Shown: piece after piece, positions 8,335-27,150 of the stretch
Numbering within the stretch: position 1 is the stretch's first letter
How the letters are laid out: each line of letters opens with the position of its first letter
Source: a virus
IMG/VR virus record: IMGVR_UViG_3300046007_014047
Coordinates: 1-29,757 of that record
Reading direction: 5' to 3' (one strand)
DNA: 29,757 bases
Made by a program: the position numbers and the translations under genes
The notes under the pieces: model-generated
What the model was told of the DNA's origin: nothing
What the model saw: only the letters and a program-made list of their open reading frames with translations
Databases searched by the model: none

Positions 8335-9252
8335 TTAATTTTTATACTCCCAAATAAATCCATAAGCTGTTTTTAATTTTCCTTGACAACATTTAGTTAT
8401 ATTTGGGTTTTTAGATCTATTATTGAATACAATATTACAGGCATCAGTAATAGAAGAAAATTCTTTTATAAAATTCCCATTTATATCATATTGAAGAATT
8501 GGTTTTGCTTTGGAATCATGCTTTTTTCCTTTTAATTTTTCACTAATAGTTTTCCCAAACCCTTCAGGTTTTGGTTTTTTATTTTTTATATTAGATTTTC
8601 CTTTTAATTTATTAATTCTTTTCTCAACATGTTCGGGGGATTGTTTATATCCAGTTAGAGATTGGCTAATTTTTTTATTTCGAGATTTTGGGTGCTTTTT
8701 GGGTTTTCCTACAACTGATTCAAAGAAAGCTTTAGTTTTAGGATAGAAATAGTTTTCTTTATTTTTTTTAGGGACTCTTAATTTTTCTTTTTGTTCTTCG
8801 TTTAATAGTCCTCTTTTAATTCCTTTTAAGGGACTTGATTTTTCTAATTTACTTTCTCTCATTTTCAATTTAGTTTTTTCATTGTGAGATTTACCCAAAT
8901 TTTTTTCTAACATTGAAATCTTCATTTTTTCTCCAAAACTCGATGGTCTAACTCTTCCTTTTAATGCTCTAGATATTTTATCTTTAGAATCTTGAGAATA
9001 AAAATCAGCTCCTCCACCTCCACTATTTTTATTCATTATTTCAAATCCCCATTGTCTAAATTGTTCTATCCAATAGGATTCAAGTGGTTTCCATTCTTTT
9101 CTATCTAAAGAATCTACTTGGTCTATGTAAGTATATTTAATGTCCTCTCCATATGTTTTTTTATGGGATAAATATCGGCAAGATTTTGTTTTTCCAATAT
9201 AAACTTTGTTAGAATTACCATAACAATTTTCTACTAAATAAATTTTTGTCAT
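8335..9252 (-). CDS. GIY-YIG homing endonuclease with NUMOD3 and NUMOD1 modules
   Basis: This 305-residue protein is a free-standing mobile endonuclease. A degenerate GIY-YIG nuclease core comes first (KIYLVEN at 3-9, KVYIGKT at 17-23, a Glu in the LESYWIEQF helix near 58). Lys/Ser-rich NUMOD3-type DNA-binding repeats follow, of the form G-K-x-x-S-x-E-x-x-x-K-x, at about 85-240. The tail is a NUMOD1 helix-turn-helix (PILQYDINGNFIKEFSSI to KTAYGFIWEYKN). It sits in the short intergenic region between the mazG-like gene and the polymerase. Such enzymes cut related DNA lacking the gene and spread by repair. The target is probably close by, perhaps in the polymerase gene; this is inference. Confidence 0.88.
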   Translation of the reverse strand: MTKIYLVENCYGNSNKVYIGKTKSCRYLSHKKTYGEDIKYTYIDQVDSLDRKEWKPLESYWIEQFRQWGFEIMNKNSGGGGADFYSQDSKDKISRALKGRVRPSSFGEKMKISMLEKNLGKSHNEKTKLKMRESKLEKSSPLKGIKRGLLNEEQKEKLRVPKKNKENYFYPKTKAFFESVVGKPKKHPKSRNKKISQSLTGYKQSPEHVEKRINKLKGKSNIKNKKPKPEGFGKTISEKLKGKKHDSKAKPILQYDINGNFIKEFSSITDACNIVFNNRSKNPNITKCCQGKLKTAYGFIWEYKN

Positions 9253-9962: not shown

Positions 9963-10598
9963 TTATAGATCTTTTCCATTTTTAGCGATTGCGTGTAAAA
10001 ATTCTTCACGAATTAGATTTCCTGGTTCCATAAAAACACCACTAAATTTGTTTGTTGTCATAACACTAGTAGGATGTTTAATTCCTCTATTCGAGCAACA
10101 CATATGTTTAGAAGCAACACTAACAGCTACTGATTCACATTCTAATTTTTCTGAAAGGAAACTATGGATTTGTTGAGTTAATGATTCTTGCATTTGTGGG
10201 CGACGAGAATAAAAATCAACTATACGATTTAACTTGCTAAGTCCAACTACGCTTTTCCCAGGAACATAAGCTACAGATGCATAACCAGTAAATGGTAAAT
10301 TATGATGTGCGCACATTGATACTACTGGAATTCCGGTTTGGATGACAACCCCATCATAATTTTCTTCATTAGGAAATACAGTCATAGAAGGTTCTTCTGA
10401 TATAGAGCCAATAATTAGGTCTTTTAACCAGGCCTTTGCAACCCTTGTTGGGGTATCGATTGTTTGAGGGTCGGCTTTATAATCAAACCCCATTGCATTC
10501 AAAAATTGACCATAATAAATAGAAGCATTGTTGATCATTTCTTCTATTTCTTTTGGTGTTCTTGGTTTGTTTTCATTTGCTTTTTTAATATACATCAT
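9963..10598 (-). CDS. folE: GTP cyclohydrolase I
   Basis: This 211-residue enzyme opens the GTP ring to give dihydroneopterin triphosphate, the first step toward folate and toward 7-deazaguanines. Zinc ligands are visible in MCAHHNLPF (C96, H98/H99) and HMCCSNRG (C167/C168). The substrate loop and helix GLSKLNRIVDFYSRRPQMQESLT (119-141) is canonical. The usual MCMMMRG motif is MCCSNRG here, a noticeable variant. The length and domain order are normal for the catalytic family. The gene is separated from the que/dpdA operon by the fibre genes but supplies the precursor for QueD. A second start codon adjoins the first (MM). A promoter-like element lies at 10619-10649. Confidence 0.95.
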   Translation of the reverse strand: MMYIKKANENKPRTPKEIEEMINNASIYYGQFLNAMGFDYKADPQTIDTPTRVAKAWLKDLIIGSISEEPSMTVFPNEENYDGVVIQTGIPVVSMCAHHNLPFTGYASVAYVPGKSVVGLSKLNRIVDFYSRRPQMQESLTQQIHSFLSEKLECESVAVSVASKHMCCSNRGIKHPTSVMTTNKFSGVFMEPGNLIREEFLHAIAKNGKDL

Positions 10599-10651: not shown

Positions 10652-13600
10652 TTAATTTAAATCTATATTTATAATATATTGCCCAGAAGTATAATTTGAA
10701 TTGTAAGGGCTTTCCCATTGTAGTTGATCCATATTATTGTTTAATATCCGAAAATTTGCTGGGTCAGTGCTAATAAAGCTGGATTTAATGTTTTGTATAT
10801 CAACATATCCATTAAGAGCGGATTGGCCCAATCCAATATTAAAAGCTCCGGGACCCATAACAGTAATAGACCCTGTATGGAAAGCAAAGGATCCTGTGAC
10901 TTTTGGTAAAACAAGGTCATTCATATACCTAGCTCCGTCTCTTAATACAAACCGTGCCAGTGATCCTGTATATGTGTTAGCGTTTAAAGACCATTGGGCC
11001 ACATCGTGTCTATATTCAAATGAATAGTTAAATGAAGCAGTAGAATTATTGCTTATATAAAACATAGTTCCTAGTAGGGCATTTCTCCATTCTGTGTTTA
11101 CTCTATAAACTCTAAAAAAGGTTTCATTAGGATTTTTGGTTATATAACTGTAATCATTGTATGTCAAATCATATCCCCATTTCATATAATTCTTAAAATG
11201 TGGAGTTATAGAATGTTGAGTTACATTTCTAGAAGGAGATATAAAACCTTCATTTCTAAAACGGGTTAATCTATTAGCAAAATTGCCATTTTTTGGGGTC
11301 ATTATATTATAATGCCAATATGGGATATATCTATAATTTTCAATAATATAATCATCCATATATTCTACCATATTATCAGCAAAATCTACTATATAATAAT
11401 AGCCATTTCCTTGATGTATATCACCTATAAACCCAGCATATTGACCTCCATTATTATAGTTTCTTTTGAATTGGGCTATAAGAGCAGTTAGAAATACAGT
11501 AGTAGAATAAAATCCATAAAATGATGGTATTAATCTAGTAGAACCAGCACCATGAGTAAAATTATAGTTATTATAGTAATTCATTATTATACTATACGCT
11601 GCGTTTTCAGTCCAAACACAATTTAAATAATAATTTCCACAATGATAAGCAGCTGTATATTGGTTAGGAAAATATATTCTCCACCCTCTTCCATTCCATC
11701 CACTCCAGTAGCTATCTCGGCTTAAAATAGTCCCCCCACTAAATGAAAAATATCCGGTAAATGAAGTACCTTGAGTAAAGCAATTATAGTAGCTTACTCC
11801 ATCGTATATATCAGAATCCCATAGGTTATAATTTCTAGGGCCAAAGGCGGATTGATCATAATTACTATTAAGATTTATAGGATATTGAGCAGACATATGT
11901 TCATATGCCGTATTTTTTATAATATATTTTCTACCATTACTAACTCCTGTAAAAGTATTCCACCTTCCTGTCCGCCATGTATTTGTTCCCCAAGCCCCAG
12001 ATAAAGTAATTTTTTTATTAAGCTTAATAAGACGTTCTCCTCCTTTTAAAAAAGGACCATGGACAAAAGGCCTATCTAATGTAATTGTTTTATTTTGAGA
12101 ATCTACTGCTGTTATTGTGTAATAATCTTTTAAATCTGTATTATAACTACTAGAAGGTATGGTTCCATTAAGTAGATTAGTATAAAAATCAGCTTCTTGT
12201 ATATACCCGACATAAGGTCCATTATACATAATCATTACTTCATCTCCCACAGAATAATCGGAAACACTACTTAATTCTAATTTAAATCCATCACTAAAGT
12301 TCCAGACACCAATATTCATCCACCTATTTTCTGCTTGGGTAGTAGAGTTACCAGTAGTATTTCCTACTTTTGTAAATCTAATATATTGAGCAGTTTGAGC
12401 ACTAGATAATTCAAATATTCTAATCGAGTCTCCAGTTCCTCTTCGCCTGTTATCTAATGATGTGGTTGAAAATGCTTCACTGCCTGTTCTAAGAGTAACA
12501 TTAGTCCAGCTACTGAGATCATTGCTGGTTTGGATTCTTAAACCTTGTCCTGTTGCCCAATATTGGTTATAGGTGCTAAATCTTTCTGTAAGAGAGACAT
12601 GAGTAAAGGTTTGTTGGGAAGTTAAATCTAATATCATACTTCCTGTTACATTATTACCAAAATTATAAGTATTAACATCATAATTTGTAGTTCCACTTAA
12701 CAATGAATAAAAGCCAGAATTTGTGTTTCTTGTATTAGTTGTTATATCATTGGTAGCATTATATATATAAGGAAAAATACTATTATTTTGTACGTCTGAT
12801 GCTCCTCGGTAGCCATAGGCTAGATTAAAATTTCCTAAAGGATTATTAATACTAGCTGCTTGTTTTATAATCCGGTCTCCTACTTTATGAGCAAATTCGG
12901 CTCCTGTTTCATATACCATGTCGTTGGCATTTCCAACATAATTAGCACTTAAAGTAAGCAATTGGGCAGTGGCATATATTTTATATTGAAGACAAGTAAA
13001 AGAATTTTGATTATTACAATATACCCCCACACGGCCATAATATCCTCCAGACCTCATGTATGATTCATTTACTAAATTATCATCTATGTATCCTTTTATA
13101 ATACCTCTTCTACAATCTAAAGTATATTTTTTTAACCCATTGGATGCTATTCCTGCTCTAGATAGTAAAATAGTGCTATCATTTGACACTAAACGTTGCA
13201 ATAATCTGTAACGAGAATTATCAGCATCTACTTCAAAATATGTTCTAGCAAATGAATCATATCCATAATCTCCATCTACAATAGGATCAGCATGTATTAC
13301 AACTCCTAGAGCTCCTCCATCCGAAGTGCCACTTGTTACATTTCTAAAGTTAGATATCCATGCTTCAACTTTAACTTCTTGACGCATTATGTCTTTTACA
13401 AATAATTGTCTATATGAAGTACTTCCTGTTTGAATTAAAGCATATGCAGATGCGGATACTGGGCTAGGTGATATCCGAAAGTCTGCAAAGAATGAAGATC
13501 GAGTAATATTAGTTTCCCATTCACTTAAATTAGTGGTTCCTGTTTTAAAATCATAATCTTTTAATAAATGATCATAATCTGAAACAGCAGTAATAGTATA

Positions 13601-14617
13601 CACATTATTATTAGCTACTATTTTGTCTCCTACTTGAAATTGTGTAGTATCTACTACAATTTGATTAGCAGATGGAATTGCCAATACAGGACCCCGTATG
13701 CCATTGATGCGAGCTAAATATAGGTCATTTCCTGATATGCCTGTTACAGTAAATACTTCGTCCATAGAGCCGCTAGGGACTGACTCTGCTACCCTAAACC
13801 CGTCATCTATTCTATAAAGATTAAAGTTTGGATCTTTAAAAATAATAGTATCATTAACTCCAAATCCTGTAGAACTAGCAGCTGACACTTTTCCGTCTCC
13901 TATAGAAACGGCGGTTGTTATTGTTGTATTAGTTCTATTTTCATCTCCCTCAAATATAATTTGAGATAATTGAAAATTCTCTCCAAATATTCTAGATGTA
14001 GTTCCTGAGCTGGCATTAGTATTATTAAGACCCCATATCACACTACCTGATCCTGAAATATGAAATGTACCATCTCTAACAGCTAATGATTGGGAGATGG
14101 TTAGGGACCCAGAATTGTATATTTTTAAATATCCCCCATTTTCTATTATTATATCTCCTCCTATTGTAGTGTTACTGCTAGTGATTTCAATTATAGGGCT
14201 AAAATGAACAAAGGCTCCATTGGGTATAGTACCCCCAAAAATACTAGTAATAGGAGATCCACCTGAGCCGGTCCAAGGTGTAGTGCTTATTGAGGTTGTC
14301 CAAGGAAAATAAGTTGTATCTACACTACATCCAGTAAATGTAGTAGCAGTAGTACCTGTATAATTTATTTTAAGTTTTTGACTTCTATCAGTTACTGTAA
14401 AAAAACTTCCATTTGCTGGAAAGCCACTTGTGCTGCTTACTGTAATAGTCTGGGTGCCTGCCCAATAATTAATAGCTGATTGGTTTATAGTAGTACGAAG
14501 GCCTCTGATTAATATAGAGTCGGCTCCATATATAGGAACAACTCCTCCTTGCCATGCTGTAGTGTCATTCCAATTTTTGGCTCCTATAAAGTTAGTAACA
14601 GAGGTTATAGTAGCCAT
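10652..14617 (-). CDS. Large virion tail-fibre/adhesin-like protein, mosaic
   Basis: This 1321-residue protein is rich in Ser, Thr, Asn, Gly and Tyr and has no signal peptide, as expected for a phage fibre or baseplate-associated adhesin. The N-terminus (about 12-50) has WNDTTAWQGGVVP and GADSILIRG, like the start of a G8/beta-helix domain. Residues ~350-550 look like a concanavalin-type jelly roll (FARTYFEVDADNSRYRLLQR, CRRGIIKGYIDDNLV). Residues ~650-775 resemble an F5/8 type C (discoidin) domain (GLRIQTSNDLSSWTNV, AQYIRFTKVG). The Tyr/Asn-rich region at ~880-1150 suggests a beta-helix. Its start overlaps the upstream gene by one base. Binding of host surface glycan is inference from these domain types. 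Confidence 0.75.
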   Translation of the reverse strand: MATITSVTNFIGAKNWNDTTAWQGGVVPIYGADSILIRGLRTTINQSAINYWAGTQTITVSSTSGFPANGSFFTVTDRSQKLKINYTGTTATTFTGCSVDTTYFPWTTSISTTPWTGSGGSPITSIFGGTIPNGAFVHFSPIIEITSSNTTIGGDIIIENGGYLKIYNSGSLTISQSLAVRDGTFHISGSGSVIWGLNNTNASSGTTSRIFGENFQLSQIIFEGDENRTNTTITTAVSIGDGKVSAASSTGFGVNDTIIFKDPNFNLYRIDDGFRVAESVPSGSMDEVFTVTGISGNDLYLARINGIRGPVLAIPSANQIVVDTTQFQVGDKIVANNNVYTITAVSDYDHLLKDYDFKTGTTNLSEWETNITRSSFFADFRISPSPVSASAYALIQTGSTSYRQLFVKDIMRQEVKVEAWISNFRNVTSGTSDGGALGVVIHADPIVDGDYGYDSFARTYFEVDADNSRYRLLQRLVSNDSTILLSRAGIASNGLKKYTLDCRRGIIKGYIDDNLVNESYMRSGGYYGRVGVYCNNQNSFTCLQYKIYATAQLLTLSANYVGNANDMVYETGAEFAHKVGDRIIKQAASINNPLGNFNLAYGYRGASDVQNNSIFPYIYNATNDITTNTRNTNSGFYSLLSGTTNYDVNTYNFGNNVTGSMILDLTSQQTFTHVSLTERFSTYNQYWATGQGLRIQTSNDLSSWTNVTLRTGSEAFSTTSLDNRRRGTGDSIRIFELSSAQTAQYIRFTKVGNTTGNSTTQAENRWMNIGVWNFSDGFKLELSSVSDYSVGDEVMIMYNGPYVGYIQEADFYTNLLNGTIPSSSYNTDLKDYYTITAVDSQNKTITLDRPFVHGPFLKGGERLIKLNKKITLSGAWGTNTWRTGRWNTFTGVSNGRKYIIKNTAYEHMSAQYPINLNSNYDQSAFGPRNYNLWDSDIYDGVSYYNCFTQGTSFTGYFSFSGGTILSRDSYWSGWNGRGWRIYFPNQYTAAYHCGNYYLNCVWTENAAYSIIMNYYNNYNFTHGAGSTRLIPSFYGFYSTTVFLTALIAQFKRNYNNGGQYAGFIGDIHQGNGYYYIVDFADNMVEYMDDYIIENYRYIPYWHYNIMTPKNGNFANRLTRFRNEGFISPSRNVTQHSITPHFKNYMKWGYDLTYNDYSYITKNPNETFFRVYRVNTEWRNALLGTMFYISNNSTASFNYSFEYRHDVAQWSLNANTYTGSLARFVLRDGARYMNDLVLPKVTGSFAFHTGSITVMGPGAFNIGLGQSALNGYVDIQNIKSSFISTDPANFRILNNNMDQLQWESPYNSNYTSGQYIINIDLN

Positions 14618-14880
14618 TAGCTGAGTTTATTTTTTAAGTCTGTTAAGACTGATATGGCTTTTTTTAGATTATTTATATATTGTTCATCTTTAACAATAGA
14701 AGCCTCAGCTACAGTTAATTGGCTTTCTATTAATTTTAATCTAGGGTCTATATCATCTTTTATATTTAGTACTGATGTGTAATCAATCTTAACTTGATTA
14801 TCTACATAAATATAATTAAAGTATTGAGTTATTAGATAATCTAAGAATAATCTATCACCAACTAAATTTACTACTTCCAT
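14617..14880 (-). CDS. Small coiled-coil protein between fibre genes, 87 aa
   Basis: This is an unrecognised 87-residue protein. Its first half is hydrophobic and aromatic (FLDYLITQYFNYIYVDNQVKI). Its second half (about 45-87) is a predicted helix with heptad-like spacing (LKLIESQLTVAEASIVK, INNLKKAISVLTDLKNKL). It overlaps the 1321-residue fibre gene by one base and lies between two virion-type genes, so it may be a fibre assembly factor or a short structural linker; this is inference. The upstream bases AAAGGAT form one of the few Shine-Dalgarno-like sites in the window. Confidence 0.65.
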   Translation of the reverse strand: MEVVNLVGDRLFLDYLITQYFNYIYVDNQVKIDYTSVLNIKDDIDPRLKLIESQLTVAEASIVKDEQYINNLKKAISVLTDLKNKLS

Positions 14881-14912
14881 AATCCTTTATTTTATTATAA
14901 ATATTCAGAAAC

Positions 14913-16529
14913 TTAAAGCCCGAAACGAGATTTAAATGCGTTGTAGTTTTGTTGGATTTCGGTTGCGGATAATGCTCGATTATACATCCTTACAATAGAT
15001 AATTTACCCTTAAACATTTCTGAACTAGAGTCAAGTCCTAAATATATGGGATAAGTATTAGTAGTTATCCCACCTGCTGAAGTGCTGACTTGTTGTGCAT
15101 TTAGATACCCAAATGAAGTTAAGCCCAAGACAGCAGTTACATGATACCATTGGTTTCCTGTATAGTCTGTAAATAAGTTTGCTGCTGAATTAAATGAACT
15201 TGGTCTTTCGATGTGCAAATATCTAAAAGTTCCATTATTCGTTTGATTTATAGAAATTGCCGGAGTTTGATTACTTTGTGTAGATCCCCTACTGAAAATT
15301 GCCATCCATTGCGAATCACCAAGAGTTTTAGTTTCCAGTGTGAATATTAATTCAACGGTTGCAGAAGTTCCTATAGCTTCTAAAGTAGCACTATTGTTAA
15401 TTATCATCCCCCCATTTAGTCCCGTAGCTGTAGCCAGGAAGTTAAAATATCCTTGAGAGTTCCAAACCGGATTTGCAGCATTTCCATTTAAAATAGCATT
15501 ATTGCTGTTTCCACTCATATCAAACCAAGTATTGCCTGAGCCCGGATATGATATTATATTTCCTGCGTCTAGTGCAAGAATTAATCCATTAGTGACAATA
15601 TTTCCTTGATAGTAATTTTGATTAATTTCATCTTGTGATAGGGATTTTTGATATACAGAAATATTTTGTATATTACTACTCCCAGCTAAAGTGCTAGTAT
15701 AAACATTTATGTTAGTAGGATTTACACCAGCAGAATAAAAGGAAGATGTTGCAGAATTTTCAGATATTAAAACTGTATTTAAATAAATCTTTCGCGTAAG
15801 TATGCTGCTTGTGGGATTTATTTCAATAATACAATTTACATTATTAAATTTAGCAACAGATTGATTTACAGAAGCAGATATAGTATTATAATTATTTAGT
15901 GAAGAAGTAATAGAATTTAATGCTCCTTTGTTTTTAAAATTAAAAGAAACAGTTATATTATTACTAGTTTGACTTAAATAATTTACTTTTACATTAGATC
16001 CTGGGGAAGGGAGTGAAATGCTATTGCTTGTGTATGAGCTGCTGTATATGGATCCTATATAACCATATCCTCCAATATCATACCATTTATTACCTGTGGT
16101 AGGATAACTTGCTAGAAAACTTGAATTTAATAATAAACCTAATTTATCAGTAACTATTGTAGGATATCTAAAATTAGTCATTAAATACTTACCACTTTCT
16201 GCTACCCATTGCAATGCAGATCCTGTATCAGTGAATTTAGGTAATCCTATTCTATCCGGAAGCCTATTTATAGAAGAAGTTATATCTGCAGAAGATGTTC
16301 CTACTATATAAAATAATGGACCACCAGGATAAGTAGAATAATTTTGAGTATATGCACTGGTTACAAATACATAAAAATTATCCCCAGGATCAATAGCACT
16401 GCGCCATAAAAGATTTCCGGTGTTACGGTTTATAGAAGAGCTAAGAGCATATTCTAAACCATTAAGTTTTAAGGATCCTAAAGTTTGAGAACCAGTATTA
16501 AATGCAATTGCAGTTGTTGGTGCGGGCAT
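14913..16529 (-). CDS. Virion protein with two LamG-like domains
   Basis: This 538-residue protein contains two tandem concanavalin A/LamG-like jelly rolls after a ~125-residue N-terminal part. Both open with the same pattern: SYPTTGNKWYDIGG (141-154) and SYPGSGNTWFDMSG (327-340). Both close with the same helix-like motif: SLSQDEINQNYY and ALSATEIQQNYN. The second copy has the full family look, including NQWYHVTAVLG and GKLSIVRMYNR. Such domains bind glycans and are common in phage receptor-binding proteins of Bacteroidota. It lies in the fibre gene block, just after the phosphoribosyltransferase gene. The N-terminal segment with VFVTSAYTQNYS and TDTGSALQWVAESG is unassigned and may attach to the virion. 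Confidence 0.8.
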   Translation of the reverse strand: MPAPTTAIAFNTGSQTLGSLKLNGLEYALSSSINRNTGNLLWRSAIDPGDNFYVFVTSAYTQNYSTYPGGPLFYIVGTSSADITSSINRLPDRIGLPKFTDTGSALQWVAESGKYLMTNFRYPTIVTDKLGLLLNSSFLASYPTTGNKWYDIGGYGYIGSIYSSSYTSNSISLPSPGSNVKVNYLSQTSNNITVSFNFKNKGALNSITSSLNNYNTISASVNQSVAKFNNVNCIIEINPTSSILTRKIYLNTVLISENSATSSFYSAGVNPTNINVYTSTLAGSSNIQNISVYQKSLSQDEINQNYYQGNIVTNGLILALDAGNIISYPGSGNTWFDMSGNSNNAILNGNAANPVWNSQGYFNFLATATGLNGGMIINNSATLEAIGTSATVELIFTLETKTLGDSQWMAIFSRGSTQSNQTPAISINQTNNGTFRYLHIERPSSFNSAANLFTDYTGNQWYHVTAVLGLTSFGYLNAQQVSTSAGGITTNTYPIYLGLDSSSEMFKGKLSIVRMYNRALSATEIQQNYNAFKSRFGL

Positions 16530-16549: not shown

Positions 16550-17056
16550 TTAATCAACTTCGATATGAGTTCCTTTTACTTCAGGCAAGTTTCTATATAA
16601 ACCTTTTTCTCCATCCATACCATATCCATACAACCATGCTTCATCTTTAATCAAATGTCCAAATATCAAACCTTCAGGAGTATCAGATGAATAACGTTTA
16701 AATAAAGTAACAGGAGTAATTGATTTGGGTTTATCTAATTTAATTTTTTTAATTATAAAATCCATAGTATTCCCTGAGTCATATATGTCATCTATAATAA
16801 AGACATTTTTATCGGCTAATGAAAGCTCAGGGTATTTTGTAATACGTAAATCTCCTTGAGTAACTCCCTCATAAGATTTTACTCGGATAAAGTCAATATA
16901 ACAGGATTTTATTTGTTTGGCTAAATCAGAAAAAAACATGAAAGCCCCATTCAATACACATATTAATACAGGGGGTTCTTCTGATAAAGAATTAATTTTA
17001 TCTGCTATATCTTTGACTATATCTTGAATTTCTTTTTCAGTATATAGTGTTGGCAT
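16550..17056 (-). CDS. hpt: Hypoxanthine-type purine phosphoribosyltransferase
   Basis: This 168-residue protein has the type I phosphoribosyltransferase fold. The PRPP-binding loop is VFIIDDIYDSGNT (85-97), with the adjacent acidic pair. LICVLNGAFMFFSDLA (31-46) is the PPi loop typical of HPRT, and RVKSYEG (58-64) is the flexible-loop Ser-Tyr motif. The enzyme would salvage hypoxanthine or guanine to IMP or GMP with PRPP. It sits at the end of the que/dpdA operon, 9 bases after a small acidic gene. Supply of guanine nucleotide to FolE, or recycling of guanine displaced by DpdA base exchange, would make sense here. That link is inference. Confidence 0.88.
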   Translation of the reverse strand: MPTLYTEKEIQDIVKDIADKINSLSEEPPVLICVLNGAFMFFSDLAKQIKSCYIDFIRVKSYEGVTQGDLRITKYPELSLADKNVFIIDDIYDSGNTMDFIIKKIKLDKPKSITPVTLFKRYSSDTPEGLIFGHLIKDEAWLYGYGMDGEKGLYRNLPEVKGTHIEVD

Positions 17057-17065
17057 ATTTAATTT

Positions 17066-17242
17066 TTAATCTTCATTACTATCATCAAAAGTATCATCGA
17101 TATCTTCCCAATCTTCCCAATCATCGTCATCTTCAGATTCTTCAAGATCTTCAAATTTTTCGTTTTCCCATTCTTCAAAGGTTAGTTCTGAGTTTGGGTT
17201 TTCTGTAAGGAATTGTTCGTATTGTTCTTCTAGTGTTGTCAT
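17066..17242 (-). CDS. Highly acidic small protein, 58 aa
   Basis: This short gene fills the gap between the FkbM methyltransferase and the phosphoribosyltransferase, starting 3 bases after the methyltransferase stop. The 58-residue product begins MTTLEEQYEQFLTENPNSE and continues into an FEEWENEKFEDL helix. It ends in a run dominated by Asp, Glu and Trp (DDDDWEDWEDIDDTFDD). Nearly half of the residues are Asp or Glu. Phages use acidic mini-proteins as DNA mimics or binding partners of host enzymes, but nothing specific is recognised here. It keeps intact frame and spacing in the operon, which supports translation. Confidence 0.7.
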   Translation of the reverse strand: MTTLEEQYEQFLTENPNSELTFEEWENEKFEDLEESEDDDDWEDWEDIDDTFDDSNED

Positions 17243-17245
17243 GGT

Positions 17246-17935
17246 TTATGCTTTTATTATAAATATATAAATTATTATTTCTGTATAGTTTTCTAAAAAA
17301 TTATCATCCCATATATTAGATGATATATCATTTCCTTCTATGCTAGTGGCTATGTATTCTAGATTTTTCAAATATAGATCTCTAAATTGTTTAAATTTAG
17401 CTTTTAAATCATAAGATCCTAAATGCCATTCTCCTACTATTTGCTTAGTATTTTTTCTTATCCAATCAAAATTTTCCTCATTGAATACTAAATATTCTCC
17501 TCCTTCACAATCTGTTTTTAAAAAATCAATTTTCTCTATATCATATTGTTCTATAAGAGATTTAAAAGTTATAGTTTCAACTTCTTCTTCTAAAGCACTC
17601 CATTTTAAATTTATGATCTCATCATCTTTACCCCCTAAAGCTTTTTGTACTATCGTTACAGGTAAACCTTCAGAATTTTCTATTAAAAGAGATTGATAAT
17701 ATGTAAATGGCTCAACTGCTATTACTTTAGAAGGATTTTTCTTTTTTATAGAATAAAGAAAAGGACCAATACTAGCTCCTAAGTCTAAAACAATATCTCC
17801 CTTTTTAACCTCAAAAAATTTTTCATATTGCCCCCATTCTTCAAATTCTTTTTTTAACCAATACTTAAACATAGGATCTCCAGTTTCTGGGTTAGCTATG
17901 TCTCCAAAATTGAAATATTCTAAGGAAATAGGCAT
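17246..17935 (-). CDS. FkbM-family SAM-dependent methyltransferase
   Basis: This 229-residue protein shows the FkbM layout. Motif I is VLDLGASIGPFL (49-60). Motif II is VIAVEP (71-76), with the acidic SAM ribose ligand. FLKTDCEGGEYLVF (138-151) is the strand 4/5 signature, with D142 and E144. FkbM enzymes usually O-methylate sugars or other small hydroxylated groups. The gene overlaps queE by one base (ATGCCTAT start inside the queE stop region), so it is translated as part of the 7-deazaguanine operon. It may methylate the modified base or an attached group, or act on an unrelated glycan; the sequence cannot decide. The last codons contain TATATTTATAA, a motif that recurs at gene boundaries. 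Confidence 0.85.
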   Translation of the reverse strand: MPISLEYFNFGDIANPETGDPMFKYWLKKEFEEWGQYEKFFEVKKGDIVLDLGASIGPFLYSIKKKNPSKVIAVEPFTYYQSLLIENSEGLPVTIVQKALGGKDDEIINLKWSALEEEVETITFKSLIEQYDIEKIDFLKTDCEGGEYLVFNEENFDWIRKNTKQIVGEWHLGSYDLKAKFKQFRDLYLKNLEYIATSIEGNDISSNIWDDNFLENYTEIIIYIFIIKA

Positions 17936-18717
17936 TAGACTTCTCTTTTAGTATCAAAAGCAATTATATGTTCACGTCCTGTAAAGTTATAATAGTTTTT
18001 AGTGCACCAATCTATAACCATAGGATATACTCTAATTAGTTCTTCTCTATTATCACCCGGAGGCATTATCCAAATTTTATGTTTTGGTACTTCAAGTTCA
18101 TCTAAAAAGGCTTTAATTTCATCCCATGTAGTTGGATCTTCAACTGGATTAGCGACTACTTTCATGTGGTAGTCGGTGTGGTATTCTATTGATTTTTTAA
18201 TAGCATCTTTATTAAGCCTGTAGCGATTGTGGGTATCAATTAATTTTTGAGTTACAATACTCCCAAGAGGTGTAGTAGTACCAACTACAGGTACACTATT
18301 ACTAAACTTAGGACTAAAAGAAATAAGATTAATAGGATAATCTGTTTCTAAATAATGCGATCCTTCAGTTTCAATTGTAATGGTGATTTGTCTTTCATTA
18401 GCAAAATGTGTTAGCTCGTTTACTAAAGCGGGGTGCATTGTTGGTGATCCTCCTGTTAACATCATTTCCTTGATTTCAGGATGATTATCATAGATATCAA
18501 TTATGTCTTGAAAAGTATATTTACCTTTTTCTGGGTGGATTGAGGTGTACCAAGAGTCGCACCACCCTCCGCTGTTGAAGAAACAGCGATGCGTACAACC
18601 CGTAGTACGAATTGCCATTGTTGGGTATCCTGCTCTACTACCTTCACTTTGAATGCATGGATATAATTCAACAATAGGTAATACTTTATTATAATCTTCT
18701 ATTCTCCCTAAACTCAT
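17935..18717 (-). CDS. queE: 7-carboxy-7-deazaguanine synthase QueE (radical SAM), variant cluster
   Basis: QueE converts 6-carboxytetrahydropterin to 7-carboxy-7-deazaguanine. The family opening IVELYPCIQSEGSRAGYPT is clear. It is followed by the radical SAM cysteines in TTGCTHRCFFNSGGWCDSW. The spacing is C-x3-C-x7-C, not the usual C-x3-C-x2-C, so five residues are inserted between the second and third cysteine. MMLTGGSPTMHP is the SAM-binding GGE-type motif, and TIETEGSHY and KVVANP are further family segments. I place the start at 18717 (MSLGRIEDY), which removes a 22-base overlap with queD that the longer frame from 18750 would need. It overlaps the FkbM gene by one base. Confidence 0.9.
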   Translation of the reverse strand: MSLGRIEDYNKVLPIVELYPCIQSEGSRAGYPTMAIRTTGCTHRCFFNSGGWCDSWYTSIHPEKGKYTFQDIIDIYDNHPEIKEMMLTGGSPTMHPALVNELTHFANERQITITIETEGSHYLETDYPINLISFSPKFSNSVPVVGTTTPLGSIVTQKLIDTHNRYRLNKDAIKKSIEYHTDYHMKVVANPVEDPTTWDEIKAFLDELEVPKHKIWIMPPGDNREELIRVYPMVIDWCTKNYYNFTGREHIIAFDTKREV

Positions 18718-18728
18718 AATATCTAATT

Positions 18729-19259
18729 TTATGTATGTGATGTAACCCAAACTGGAGCAGGTGGTAATACTTTTGGGGCTACTAGTGTCTCAACTGATTC
18801 TTCATATGAAGCGGAATTGCGTTCGTTTTCGTATACTTCTACTTTAACTACTTTAACTCGGTTTTTAGTTTCAGCTAATACAAATGTATTTATTTTACCA
18901 AAAATATATTTAGCAAATTGTTCTGCTCCTACTGCGGGCAATATACGTAATTGTATAATACCATCAGTGTTCATTTTTTGGAATTGATACAAGTGGGGAT
19001 CGTTATCCGCAATAATAGTGGTGTGGTCAAACATACTTTCCATCCATGCTTTTGGACTTAAGCCATCTATTCTGCTTTTGGCTCGCTTCATACCTCCAAA
19101 ATCCCATACCCAGTTACGCTCATCTAGTTCACCTTCAAACCATATTCTAAAACTAAGTGCATACCCATGTAAATATTTGCAATGAGTATCTTCTGCTTTC
19201 CATTGACGGAATACACAACTGAATCCATCAAATAATTTTGTTGATTGAAATTTAGCCAT
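18729..19259 (-). CDS. queD: 6-carboxytetrahydropterin synthase QueD, divergent
   Basis: This 176-residue protein belongs to the QueD/PTPS family, which turns dihydroneopterin triphosphate into 6-carboxytetrahydropterin. Recognisable parts are GFSCVFRQW, HCKYLHGYALSF, the VWDFGGMKRAKS strand-helix, MFDHTTIIADNDPH and VGAEQFAKYIF, with VKVEVYENERNSASY near the end. In the common form zinc is held by a His in the first segment and by both His of HGH. Here the first position is Phe and the second motif is HGY, so two of three ligands are replaced; an extra His and Cys lie just before (THCKYLHGY). It overlaps the thioredoxin gene by 8 bases. The C-terminal 20 residues are Pro/Val-rich. Confidence 0.85.
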   Translation of the reverse strand: MAKFQSTKLFDGFSCVFRQWKAEDTHCKYLHGYALSFRIWFEGELDERNWVWDFGGMKRAKSRIDGLSPKAWMESMFDHTTIIADNDPHLYQFQKMNTDGIIQLRILPAVGAEQFAKYIFGKINTFVLAETKNRVKVVKVEVYENERNSASYEESVETLVAPKVLPPAPVWVTSHT

Positions 19260-19500
19260 TATAAAAATTTATTACTTGTTCAACATTTCTTACACCCGTA
19301 AAACGTCTAATTTCTTGTCCGTTTTCTACTAAAATTACAGTAGGGATACTTTTAACATTATACTTTGTTGTTACGTCTGCCGTATAATCAATATCTAATT
19401 TATTGACTGGAATGCCTTGTGCTTTGATAGCATCCATAACGGGACCGAATTGTTGGCATGGTTGACACCAGCCTGATGTAAAATACCATAATTGTTTCAT
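19252..19500 (-). CDS. Thioredoxin-like protein
   Basis: This 82-residue protein is a small thioredoxin. It begins directly with the active-site strand, and the redox motif is WCQPC (11-15) instead of the common WCGPC. The cis-proline loop KSIPTVILV and the final FTGVRNVEQVINF helix are present. It lacks the first strand and helix of E. coli-type thioredoxins (about 108 residues). Likely partners are the phage ribonucleotide reductase, which ends in a CVSC redox pair, or QueE/QueD operon enzymes. It lies in the que operon with overlaps of 4 and 8 bases to its neighbours. Confidence 0.9.
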   Translation of the reverse strand: MKQLWYFTSGWCQPCQQFGPVMDAIKAQGIPVNKLDIDYTADVTTKYNVKSIPTVILVENGQEIRRFTGVRNVEQVINFYNG

Positions 19501-19694
19501 AAAATTTCTTCTTGTTTAATTAGTTCACATTTGTTTTCTCTTAATATATATGCAGTTGATTCCTCTTTTAATGGTTTAGCATTATTCCAGTTATAATCCC
19601 ATTTAAATTTTCCATGAGACATACCGGAAAATACTAAACCATTTTGGTCCATCACAACATAATGTTGTACAAAGGGGGTGGGTTTTCTACGCAT
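19497..19694 (-). CDS. Hypothetical protein in que operon, 65 aa
   Basis: I do not recognise this protein. It is 65 residues, basic at the N-terminus (MRRKPTPF), with a beta-type segment VQHYVVMDQNGLVFSGMS. Then come an aromatic stretch FKWDYNWNNAKPL and a polar tail. The form suggests a small sheet domain that might act as an accessory subunit. It overlaps queC by one base and the thioredoxin gene by four bases, so it is an integral member of the operon. Confidence 0.65.
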   Translation of the reverse strand: MRRKPTPFVQHYVVMDQNGLVFSGMSHGKFKWDYNWNNAKPLKEESTAYILRENKCELIKQEEIL

Positions 19695-20596
19695 TATCCT
19701 TCTCGTTCATAAATTAATTGTTCAACATGCTTCTTAGCTACTTCCCAAGATACGGGACCGGTTTCATCAGCATAATTTATAGGATCTTTACGTCTTAATC
19801 TAAGAAAAGCTTCAATACGTTCTACGGAAGATGCTGATTTATAGTCTGAAAACCACTCATAGTGTGGACCACCCGGTGCCATTCCCATAAAGTGTAAGGT
19901 TGGTTTATATGAAGTATTTGTACGTTTATATACTTCATCAAAATCTAGCATAAGATCTTTACATAAGTCTTCTCCATCTTTTAAAATAGTATATTTATTC
20001 CCTTGTAAATATGGAGTAAAATACTTAACCAAATGCGAATCCCAATTACCTTTTCTAAAAGCATCATAGTCTGCATCTCTAAATTCTTCTCTACAGTCAG
20101 GGTAAATAAAGTGGTCACCACTATGTACTCCTAAAGCAATATCACATTCTTGGTTTCGCTGAGTAGCAATAGATAGAGCAATAGCTTGGATAATTGAGCT
20201 AAAGATTTTATTGCGGTTGGGCACAACAGTTGATTTCATGTTTTCCTCAGCATAATGGCCTTCAGGTACCTCAGTACCTCCATAAACAAGTGTAGAATTA
20301 AGTAAACCACTTAAACCATTTAGTTCAATAACATGATAATTTACTAATGAATATGTTTCTTCAAATCCATTAGGAGCATGATCATGGTGAAATATACGGC
20401 AGGGGTTTGCATTGATATAATCTACCAATGATTGTGCACGTTCAAGTTCAACTCGATGTTTTTGGCCATAATCAAAACTTACAGCCACAACATTTTTGTA
20501 TTCTTTCAAACAGCGTAAAAGTAAGGTGCTGCTGTCCATCCCACCACTTAGTGAGACTACAACATTGTCTTTGGGAAAAGGAATTTCTAGTTGCAT
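19694..20596 (-). CDS. queC: preQ0 synthase QueC (PP-loop ATPase), no zinc cysteines
   Basis: QueC uses ATP and ammonia to turn 7-carboxy-7-deazaguanine into preQ0 by way of the amide. The PP-loop SGGMDSS (17-23) is intact, followed by SFDYGQKHRVEL and the STVVPNRNKIFSSI substrate segment, then ALGVHSGDHFIYPDCR. The usual C-terminal zinc site with clustered cysteines is missing: no Cys occurs after CKDLMLDF. In its place are TNTSYKPTLHFMG and SASSVERIEAFLRL. At 300 residues it is longer than typical QueC (about 220-240). Either a zinc-free structural variant or a changed reaction, for example stopping at the amide, is possible. It follows dpdA by one base. Confidence 0.9.
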   Translation of the reverse strand: MQLEIPFPKDNVVVSLSGGMDSSTLLLRCLKEYKNVVAVSFDYGQKHRVELERAQSLVDYINANPCRIFHHDHAPNGFEETYSLVNYHVIELNGLSGLLNSTLVYGGTEVPEGHYAEENMKSTVVPNRNKIFSSIIQAIALSIATQRNQECDIALGVHSGDHFIYPDCREEFRDADYDAFRKGNWDSHLVKYFTPYLQGNKYTILKDGEDLCKDLMLDFDEVYKRTNTSYKPTLHFMGMAPGGPHYEWFSDYKSASSVERIEAFLRLRRKDPINYADETGPVSWEVAKKHVEQLIYEREG

Positions 20597-20597
20597 A

Positions 20598-21383
20598 TTA
20601 TAAATTGTTTATATCTCTAAATCTAATAACATTGTAATACATTAAATCTACGTCAATATCTTCAAGATTCCAAGTTTGAGTTACATTAAGGTTAAGTTTT
20701 GGTTTTGGATGTTGTCCATCAGTGTACCTGGTTCCTTCTAAAGCAGCCATAATTGGATTTGATGTGTCAATAGATTCAATAAAGGGATAATCTTCATAGA
20801 ATTTAAATTCAAAAGGCATAGCTGTGCCAAGCAAATGTACGCGGTCTTTTTTCGTAATAATTTTGTTTTTATACAATGAACTAATCACCCACAGACGTCC
20901 TATTGCCTTACCAAAATCACTGTTTATATGCGGGACTATATCATTGTAATAACTAGCACCGTATGAAAATGCTATTTTTTTATAACCTAAATCTTTATAT
21001 GTTTGATAACTAATTAATGCATCTTCATAACTTTTTCCTTGAACCACTGCAACTTTAGTTATTTCTTTAGGAAGTTTAATATTTGACCATTCTCTGGCTT
21101 TAACTACAGATTGTGTTTTATTTTCCCACACATCGGGTACTATAAATTCATTTGGTCTTAATTCATTTATCCAATGTAATAAACGAGATTCATTATATGC
21201 ACGGCCAAGTTCATGTAATGAATTGTCCATTATAATATATTGTCCCTCTTCTTTACATCTGTAAAAAAATTCTCGATATTGCTCGTTTTGATCTAGCAAG
21301 TGGGGAAGACAATACTGGTAGTCATTGAATTTAAGGCTATGCTCAAGTAAGCAGATAGGTACTTCGTGTGATACTTTTATCAT
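20598..21383 (-). CDS. dpdA: DpdA-like DNA 7-deazaguanine transglycosylase
   Basis: This 261-residue protein looks like the phage DpdA group, TIM-barrel relatives of tRNA-guanine transglycosylase that exchange guanine in DNA for a 7-deazaguanine. Supporting segments are IIMDNSLHELG (50-60), EFIVPDVW (79-86), VAVVQG (111-116), the VHLLGT strand (182-187) and SIDTSNP (204-210). In these, D53, D84 and D206 are candidates for base recognition and the nucleophile. The family call rests on this motif order plus the fixed context: queC, queD and queE follow in one operon and folE is nearby. The gene overlaps the upstream 125-residue gene by 4 bases and ends one base before queC. Confidence 0.78.
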   Translation of the reverse strand: MIKVSHEVPICLLEHSLKFNDYQYCLPHLLDQNEQYREFFYRCKEEGQYIIMDNSLHELGRAYNESRLLHWINELRPNEFIVPDVWENKTQSVVKAREWSNIKLPKEITKVAVVQGKSYEDALISYQTYKDLGYKKIAFSYGASYYNDIVPHINSDFGKAIGRLWVISSLYKNKIITKKDRVHLLGTAMPFEFKFYEDYPFIESIDTSNPIMAALEGTRYTDGQHPKPKLNLNVTQTWNLEDIDVDLMYYNVIRFRDINNL

Positions 21384-21757
21384 TTTAGTATTTGTTTTAG
21401 GATATTAATTTCATTTTCAAATAATTCTGTTTCCATTTTACTTCTAGTTTTTTCAATAGTACGTTCAACTAAAGCTATAAGTTCATTTGATAAATAAGAA
21501 CCAATAGTAAATTCAAATGAGTAAGTATGATTAGTAAGTTTTACAAAATTATTTTGTAATATAAGAGTATATTTTTTATCCTCAGTTTGTAAATAATATC
21601 GCCCTGATGGAGTCATTAGATAATGTGTTTTTGGGTTTGATAAGAGCCTAATAACTACTCGTTTAGTAAGATATTCTCTTTCGGTTAAAGGAGGATTGTT
21701 TTTGACTTTATTTTTTAACCAAATAGATAATTTTTTAAATTTGTATTTAATGTTCAT
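21380..21757 (-). CDS. Hypothetical protein, first gene of dpdA/que operon, 125 aa
   Basis: I do not recognise this 125-residue protein. It starts with a basic, amphipathic helix (KYKFKKLSIWLKNKVK) and has a central beta segment (HYLMTPSGRYYLQTEDKKYTLILQN). It ends in a long charged helix (IALVERTIEKTRSKMETELFEN). It overlaps dpdA by four bases and is the first gene after the promoter-like element at 21774-21804. A DNA-binding or accessory role for the transglycosylase is conceivable but unsupported. Confidence 0.65.
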   Translation of the reverse strand: MNIKYKFKKLSIWLKNKVKNNPPLTEREYLTKRVVIRLLSNPKTHYLMTPSGRYYLQTEDKKYTLILQNNFVKLTNHTYSFEFTIGSYLSNELIALVERTIEKTRSKMETELFENEINILKQILK

Positions 21758-21773
21758 AACTTTTATTTATAAT

Positions 21774-21804
21774 TAAATGTACGAATAATTTTTTAAATAT
21801 CCAA
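21774..21804 (-). promoter_or_regulatory. Promoter-like element for the dpdA/que operon
   Basis: The coding strand has TTG, exactly 20 bases, then TACATTTA, preceded directly by TTCG. It fits the Bacteroidota promoter form and lies in the gap between the AT-hook protein gene and the first operon gene. About 16 bases separate the element from the ATG at 21757. Confidence 0.6.
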
Positions 21805-26775: not shown

Positions 26776-27150
26776 TTATGATTTAGGTTCAAGTGTAAGC
26801 ATTCCCCAAGTTGTGAAATCAACTTTATTTTTTACCATATCATATAAATCTGCTAAAGTTTCAAACCCAGGCATTTTTCTCCATTTTTCAGCAGGTATCC
26901 TACCCCATCCCCATTTGTTTCGAAGATAATAACCCTGGCGAACTTCGTTATATATTAGTTCTCCATTTACTTCTAACTCTGCATACCAATCTCTAGTTAA
27001 ATCATCATATTTTATTGTAGCTATTTCGTCTCCTGATTTTAGGGTGAATTTTTTTCCACCTCGCTCTTCGCTAAATCCATCACTGGATGGATTATTTATC
27101 ATACCTTCAATTTCTTCTCTAATAATTTGTCTTAACTGCGATATTTTCAT
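26776..27150 (-). CDS. Hypothetical protein with LRQIIREEI N-terminus, 124 aa
   Basis: This 124-residue protein starts with MKISQLRQIIREEIEGM, a short amphipathic helix type that recurs at the start of unrelated small proteins in large marine phages; this is from memory and its role is unknown. The rest forms a compact beta-type domain (KFTLKSGDEIATIKYDD, WYAELEVNGELIYNE) with a tryptophan-rich stretch (NKWGWGRIPAEKWRKMPG). It is the last gene before a strong terminator and is preceded by a promoter-like element at 27180-27210. Confidence 0.68.
   Translation of the reverse strand: MKISQLRQIIREEIEGMINNPSSDGFSEERGGKKFTLKSGDEIATIKYDDLTRDWYAELEVNGELIYNEVRQGYYLRNKWGWGRIPAEKWRKMPGFETLADLYDMVKNKVDFTTWGMLTLEPKS

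Follow-up and report, generated by a model that had tools for sequence, protein, structure and literature searches.

Operon content and predicted function

A run of 7-deazaguanine genes on the minus strand (16550-21757) of the IMG/VR record IMGVR_UViG_3300046007_014047 raises the question of what its products do to the DNA of the phage, and of what becomes of the guanine that such an exchange releases. The entire record, 29,757 bases, was analysed and is referred to below as the window; it is in all likelihood a piece of a larger phage genome. The operon probably directs a post-replicative swap of guanine in phage DNA for a 7-deazaguanine, with a guanine loop running through an HGPRT-type phosphoribosyltransferase (HPT) and with the FkbM-family methyltransferase of the same gene run taking no part. 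Systems of this type are known, but the enzyme set is unusual: an overlooked gene likely recycles the guanine, and several enzymes are stripped of their zinc sites.

The assignment to DNA modification is carried by a protein of 261 amino acids (aa). Its profile match is phrog_19058, whose function is unassigned, and it matches no named family; a weak match to Pfam DUF6610 lies below the cut-off and was not used. The AlphaFold2 model of this protein (pLDDT 94.7) has as its best solved match in VIA the DNA preQ0 insertase DpdA (7ui4; Z 17.6, 3.2 Å, 231 residues), and the top matches provided by Foldseek are all tRNA-guanine transglycosylases (TGTs). The structure check gave a DpdA/TGT fold and not a non-transglycosylase TIM barrel, which supports the proposal of an earlier note on this DNA that the genes form a 7-deazaguanine DNA-modification operon with a DpdA-type transglycosylase. 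In the predicted pathway, FolE, QueD, QueE and QueC, a set that is complete by family matches, would convert GTP through 7-carboxy-7-deazaguanine (CDG) and 7-amido-7-deazaguanine (ADG) to preQ0. The small DpdA-type enzyme would then exchange guanine in DNA for a 7-deazaguanine base, and the guanine freed would probably be joined to phosphoribosyl pyrophosphate (PRPP) by HPT to give GMP, which could return through GTP to FolE and close the guanine loop. Since 7-deazaguanine in phage DNA is a known means of restriction evasion, the modified DNA most likely resists host restriction.

The genes of the run are listed in the order of transcription, followed by folE:

21380-21757, minus strand: 125-aa protein, overlapping the start of dpdA; found in close relatives only
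20598-21383, minus strand: DpdA-like transglycosylase, 261 aa (fold match, phrog_19058)
19694-20596, minus strand: QueC variant, 300 aa (PF06508, E=4.5e-34)
19497-19694, minus strand: 65-aa protein, kept between QueC and thioredoxin in several relatives
19252-19500, minus strand: thioredoxin-like protein, 82 aa (PF00085, 3.5e-15)
18729-19259, minus strand: QueD variant (PF01242, 1e-16; phrog_2389, 1.4e-41)
17935-18717, minus strand: QueE, putative radical SAM protein (phrog_2076, 1.3e-48)
17246-17935, minus strand: FkbM-family methyltransferase, 229 aa (PF05050, 1.5e-12; TIGR01444, above cut-off)
17066-17242, minus strand: acidic 58-aa protein, found in the two closest relatives only (L021 and L044)
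16550-17056, minus strand: HPT (PF00156, 1.7e-21)
9963-10598, minus strand: FolE, GTP cyclohydrolase I, step one of the pathway, with its zinc ligands kept

The order and strand of these touching or overlapping genes agree with the open reading frame (ORF) calls. All genes named in the earlier note are there, with the addition of the 65-aa protein that it had missed; folE, described there as nearby, is within the window and lies approximately 6 kb downstream of HPT with three genes between. The start of QueE is more likely the ATG at 18717 than the TTG at 18750 of the ORF list because the homologues begin there, and a short gap would therefore follow QueD.

Conservation among related phages

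Scans with DpdA and QueE provided 76 viral loci (L002-L040 and L044-L080). The DpdA tree resolves three groups, which are clade A with the window (14 rows, support 98/99), clade B1 of the immuto type (100/99), named here for the Flavobacterium Immutovirus (NC_055915), and clade B2 of the L023-L037 type (84/90). The gene order of clade A is DpdA, QueC, thioredoxin, QueD, QueE, cargo, HPT, FolE, MazG-like, PolB, clamp, Hsp20, GroES and GroEL. The thioredoxin occupies the same operon position in nearly all clade A loci. A second thioredoxin-like gene is found between QueE and HPT in some relatives, those listed being L010 (9022-9267), L059 (4876-5157) and L060 (9241-9516). L044 is nearly identical to the window in QueC (98%), thioredoxin (99%) and QueD (99%), and the DpdA of G015, a clade A record of 170 kb, is 62% identical to that of the window.

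Phosphoribosyltransferase and proposed guanine recycling

Clades A and B1 are the two with the variant QueC, and all 44 of their loci in which QueE and FolE both occur carry a phosphoribosyltransferase between these genes; none of the 15 B2 loci does. HPT and FolE are 54-206 bp apart in 43 of the 44, and the distance between HPT and QueE ranges from 13 to 7,115 bp; because the former spacing is narrow and the latter variable, HPT travels with FolE. The motifs of the enzyme are intact, both the PRPP motif (IDDIYDSGNTM) and the C-terminal GYGMD...RNL, and the solved structures closest to it, those of HG(X)PRTs (HGXPRT 4qri, 1.9e-23), mark it as a 6-oxopurine phosphoribosyltransferase. The enzyme at the same place in immuto (L041 6843-7238), L070-L073 and L075 is shorter, XGPRT/GPT-like and carries 'DWIVYPWE'. 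As two different purine-base phosphoribosyltransferases occupy one place, the comparison suggests selection for purine-base salvage at the QueE-FolE position and not linkage by descent.

Because a DpdA-type exchange releases guanine, we infer that guanine is the substrate of HPT. The recycling of displaced guanine was the better-supported part of the earlier note, and the intact motifs and fixed position beside FolE make it probable. It is unlikely that HPT instead makes ribonucleotides of preQ0 or ADG, or that it serves purine salvage in general, with no link to the modification. A gene of phosphoribosyltransferase type in L036 is located away from the que genes and makes a general role possible, but HPT itself keeps its place 54-206 bp upstream of FolE, and this place is taken by the XGPRT-type enzyme in the immuto clade. 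The gene is also rare, with 17 matches in 50,697 phage records, mostly from unannotated or bacterial-like sequence and none from a recognised 7-deazaguanine phage. HGPRT catalysis uses the purine N7 through a conserved Asp, and 7-deazaguanines such as preQ0 do not have N7. This requirement would keep HPT off the preQ0 product. The literature searched does not link guanine salvage to 7-deazaguanine phages.

Metal sites of the pathway enzymes

The window QueC, whose model has B. subtilis QueC as its best match (3bl5, Z 18.1), retains all published catalytic motifs of the canonical QueC cluster 1 (PF06508), as defined in PMC13329287. These are SGGMDS, YGQKHxxE, VPNRN and YPDC, together with the essential Tyr just after the position of the first zinc cysteine; residues Y35, R99, Y131 and Y189 are essential in E. 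coli QueC (PMC13329287). It differs from this cluster at the zinc motif C(x)8CxxCxxC, which is replaced by TSYKP...SDYKSASSVER with Ser or Asp for all four cysteines. The Ser-type zinc-less motif is present in 43 of the 56 QueC ORFs of the fetched loci, and the variant forms a single clade in the QueC tree (100/99). Four-cysteine QueC ORFs number 11, every one from B2 or its close kin. The QueC of Rhizobium phage RHEph04 (L111 3168-4004) likewise lacks the zinc motif and branches separately from this clade, although the branches are long and its placement is uncertain.

The window QueD has lost two of its three zinc histidines: HGH has become HGY, and a Phe stands where the first zinc His would be. 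It retains the catalytic Cys. Of the 57 QueD ORFs in the fetched loci, 53 have HGY, a motif shared by immuto, phiST, Mendera and RHEph04, and HGH is retained in the Rosebush-type phages, Dp-1 and VpKK5. The window QueE has three cysteines, spaced CX3CX7C, where the radical SAM motif of QueE is CX3CX2C or CX14CX2C. At the usual QueE position, L007 (6198-7112), L009 (13534-14379) and L015 (15500-16384) encode a different QueE that is approximately 30% identical and has the spacing CX3CX12C. No description of zinc loss in QueC or QueD was found in the literature searched.

Predicted identity of the inserted base

The earlier note had reported neither QueF nor an amidotransferase, and this holds for the window and its clade. 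QueF and formyltransferase are missing from the window, itself a fragment, and from the clade A records, including the 170-kb G015; the two genes occur together in the same eleven immuto-type records. The sole weak QueF match in the window is FolE itself, a T-fold relative, and was rejected. GATase_6 and ArcS domains are likewise missing from clade A, and the Gat-QueC, ArcS or QueF-L of dG+ systems were not found in the window or the other clade A records, most of which are fragments. Because QueF, formyltransferase, GATase_6 and ArcS are missing from clade A, dPreQ0 by default would be the likeliest base judging from gene content, with dADG as the alternative. Host enzymes could add further steps.

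An origin of dADG in a zinc-less QueC that stops at the amide is improbable. QueC does pass through an ADG intermediate (PMC13329287), and 43 QueC ORFs carry the Ser-type motif where the zinc cysteines would be. However, Campylobacter phage CP220, in which dADG replaces 100% of deoxyguanosine, retains all four QueC cysteines. In immuto, G016, G020 and G023, moreover, the zinc-less QueC is the only QueC detected and accompanies QueF, which uses preQ0. The loss of zinc as the cause of dADG is disfavoured on these two grounds, and dPreQ0 is preferred.

Probable target of the DpdA-like transglycosylase

In an alignment of 28 sequences, the invariant residues of the 261-aa protein are D53-N54-S55, V113/Q115, HLLG183-186 and D206-T-S. 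These would correspond to the catalytic Asp residues (D102/D280) and base-binding motifs of TGT. The TGT zinc site CXCXXC and the C-terminal zinc subdomain are missing, with no cysteine present beyond residue 43, and the protein has no PUA domain. Its phage relatives are those of Flavobacterium immuto (annotated DpdA, 35%), Campylobacter CP220/CPt10 (31%) and Cellulophaga phiST (22%). Cui and colleagues (2023, Nucleic Acids Research) reportedly set out the DpdA3 subfamily, as well as DpdL, DpdM and DpdN as enzymes of phages.

We infer that the target is DNA. It is very unlikely that the protein acts on tRNA in the manner of queuosine or archaeosine enzymes. The fold is that of TGT, and many TGTs score Z ~17 in VIA, tied with 7ui4 and within error of the DpdA match, yet the protein is short and without both the CXCXXC site and the PUA domain, and its homologues are annotated as DpdA and reside in phages whose DNA guanine is fully replaced.

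FkbM gene and the QueE-HPT slot

The FkbM gene overlaps QueE by one base at 17935 (TAATG), and the earlier note had concluded from this neighbourhood that the base could be methylated or otherwise non-standard. No FkbM gene occupies the QueE-HPT slot in any relative, L044 included; the position is taken by another gene in L044 and by nothing large in L021. Elsewhere, the slot contains thymidylate synthase (ThyA), MGS-like, SET, 4HBT thioesterase, sulfotransferase and DegT aminotransferase genes or another methyltransferase. Cargo genes in this slot often closely abut QueE, so the one-base overlap is uninformative on function. A pattern scan of the viral and genome collections, which reaches close relatives only, found no related FkbM locus. 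FkbM-family genes of G015 are approximately 10-18 kb from HPT, and the best phage relative of the window protein (42%) comes from a cyanophage, where its gene lies in a tail-fibre/mannosyltransferase region. FkbM is probably cargo outside the base pathway, as judged by synteny; a role elsewhere, such as an action on surface glycan, is more likely. A Methyltransf_24 protein and a thioesterase-like protein are encoded at 357-1580 of the window. A relative of the former fills the QueE-HPT slot in L012, and relatives of the latter fill it in L010, L013, L014 and L020, which looks like cargo passing from slot to slot.

Methylated dPreQ1 is said, again by Cui and colleagues in 2023, to occur in other phages. 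That FkbM methylates preQ0, ADG or the inserted base is nevertheless extremely improbable and was rejected on synteny, since a genuine FkbM-family methyltransferase that is co-directional with QueE and overlaps it is set against the absence of FkbM from this locus in every relative, even one with 98-99% identical QueC, thioredoxin and QueD, the unrelated cargo that fills the same slot, the distance of the G015 genes from HPT, and the lack of an amine for methylation in preQ0 without QueF.

Weight of the evidence

Several points weigh against a guanine swap with recycling through HPT. The QueC and QueD enzymes do not have the canonical zinc ligands, which makes their product harder to predict than the gene names suggest. 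The 44 loci with a phosphoribosyltransferase include near-identical contigs (L046-L051 are near copies) and are not all independent, and L070-L073 and L075 have the divergent XGPRT-type enzyme instead of HPT. Against the NCBIfam equivalog TIGR01203, HPT gives a full-length match of 112 bits, below the cut-off of 150. The window spans only 29.8 kb, and enzymes that modify the base further could be encoded beyond it; G015 shares just 62% identity with it in DpdA and is not certified complete.

Other features of the window

The interval between HPT and FolE (10652-16529) encodes proteins of 1321, 87 and 538 aa; the last is virion-like, and both large ones are tail-like. It looks like an insertion that breaks the conserved HPT/FolE pair, because the two genes are just 54-57 bp apart in L021 and L044, the closest relatives. 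A homing-endonuclease-like gene (phrog_314; 8335-9252) adjoins the family B DNA polymerase. An N-terminal tag similar to MKxxxLRQIIREEI is common to otherwise dissimilar small proteins encoded in the window (26776-27150), L044 (3051-3614), L002 (5762-6037) and L011 (2874-3410), and could be a targeting or processing signal.

Comparison with known systems and implications

The system is most readily compared with that of Flavobacterium Immutovirus. This phage, which has been isolated on Flavobacterium LMO8, shares QueC (64%), QueD (68%) and QueE (66%) of the same zinc-less types and DpdA (35%), as well as a phosphoribosyltransferase between QueE and FolE, MazG and GroES/GroEL. It differs in having its own QueF and formyltransferase beside dpdA, a phosphoribosyltransferase of XGPRT/GPT type and a QueC located elsewhere in the genome, and no FkbM was detected in its record by PF05050. 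The Campylobacter Firehammervirus phages CP220/CPt10 encode a DpdA homologue that is 31% identical over 99%, and 100% of their deoxyguanosine is reported to be replaced by dADG (PMC8306585). Their dpdA and queC are far apart, however, their QueC keeps four cysteines and no phosphoribosyltransferase was detected. The dPreQ0/dG+ phages with DpdA or DpdA2 (Hutinet 2019, PMC6884629), for example the Rosebush-type mycobacteriophages, resemble the window in having FolE, QueD, QueE, QueC and a transglycosylase in one run. They differ in their transglycosylase subgroup, in their canonical QueC and QueD metal ligands and in the lack of HPT.

With QueD, QueC and the transglycosylase all having lost the zinc sites usual for such enzymes, the pathway, joined to guanine salvage to FolE, may form a closed zinc-sparing loop in immuto-kind phages that could sustain near-complete guanine replacement, although this suggestion is tentative. 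The conserved QueC without zinc ligands offers a direct test of the role of the metal and of zinc-free preQ0 synthesis, and it is informative because QueC has been described as dependent on zinc (PMC13329287). The FkbM gene is a caution that a single adjoining methyltransferase gene is a poor guide to base chemistry. If guanine salvage by HPT is true, the enzyme would answer the question of the fate of the guanine expelled during the rewriting of a phage genome, and its gene would be a marker of heavy-replacement phages.

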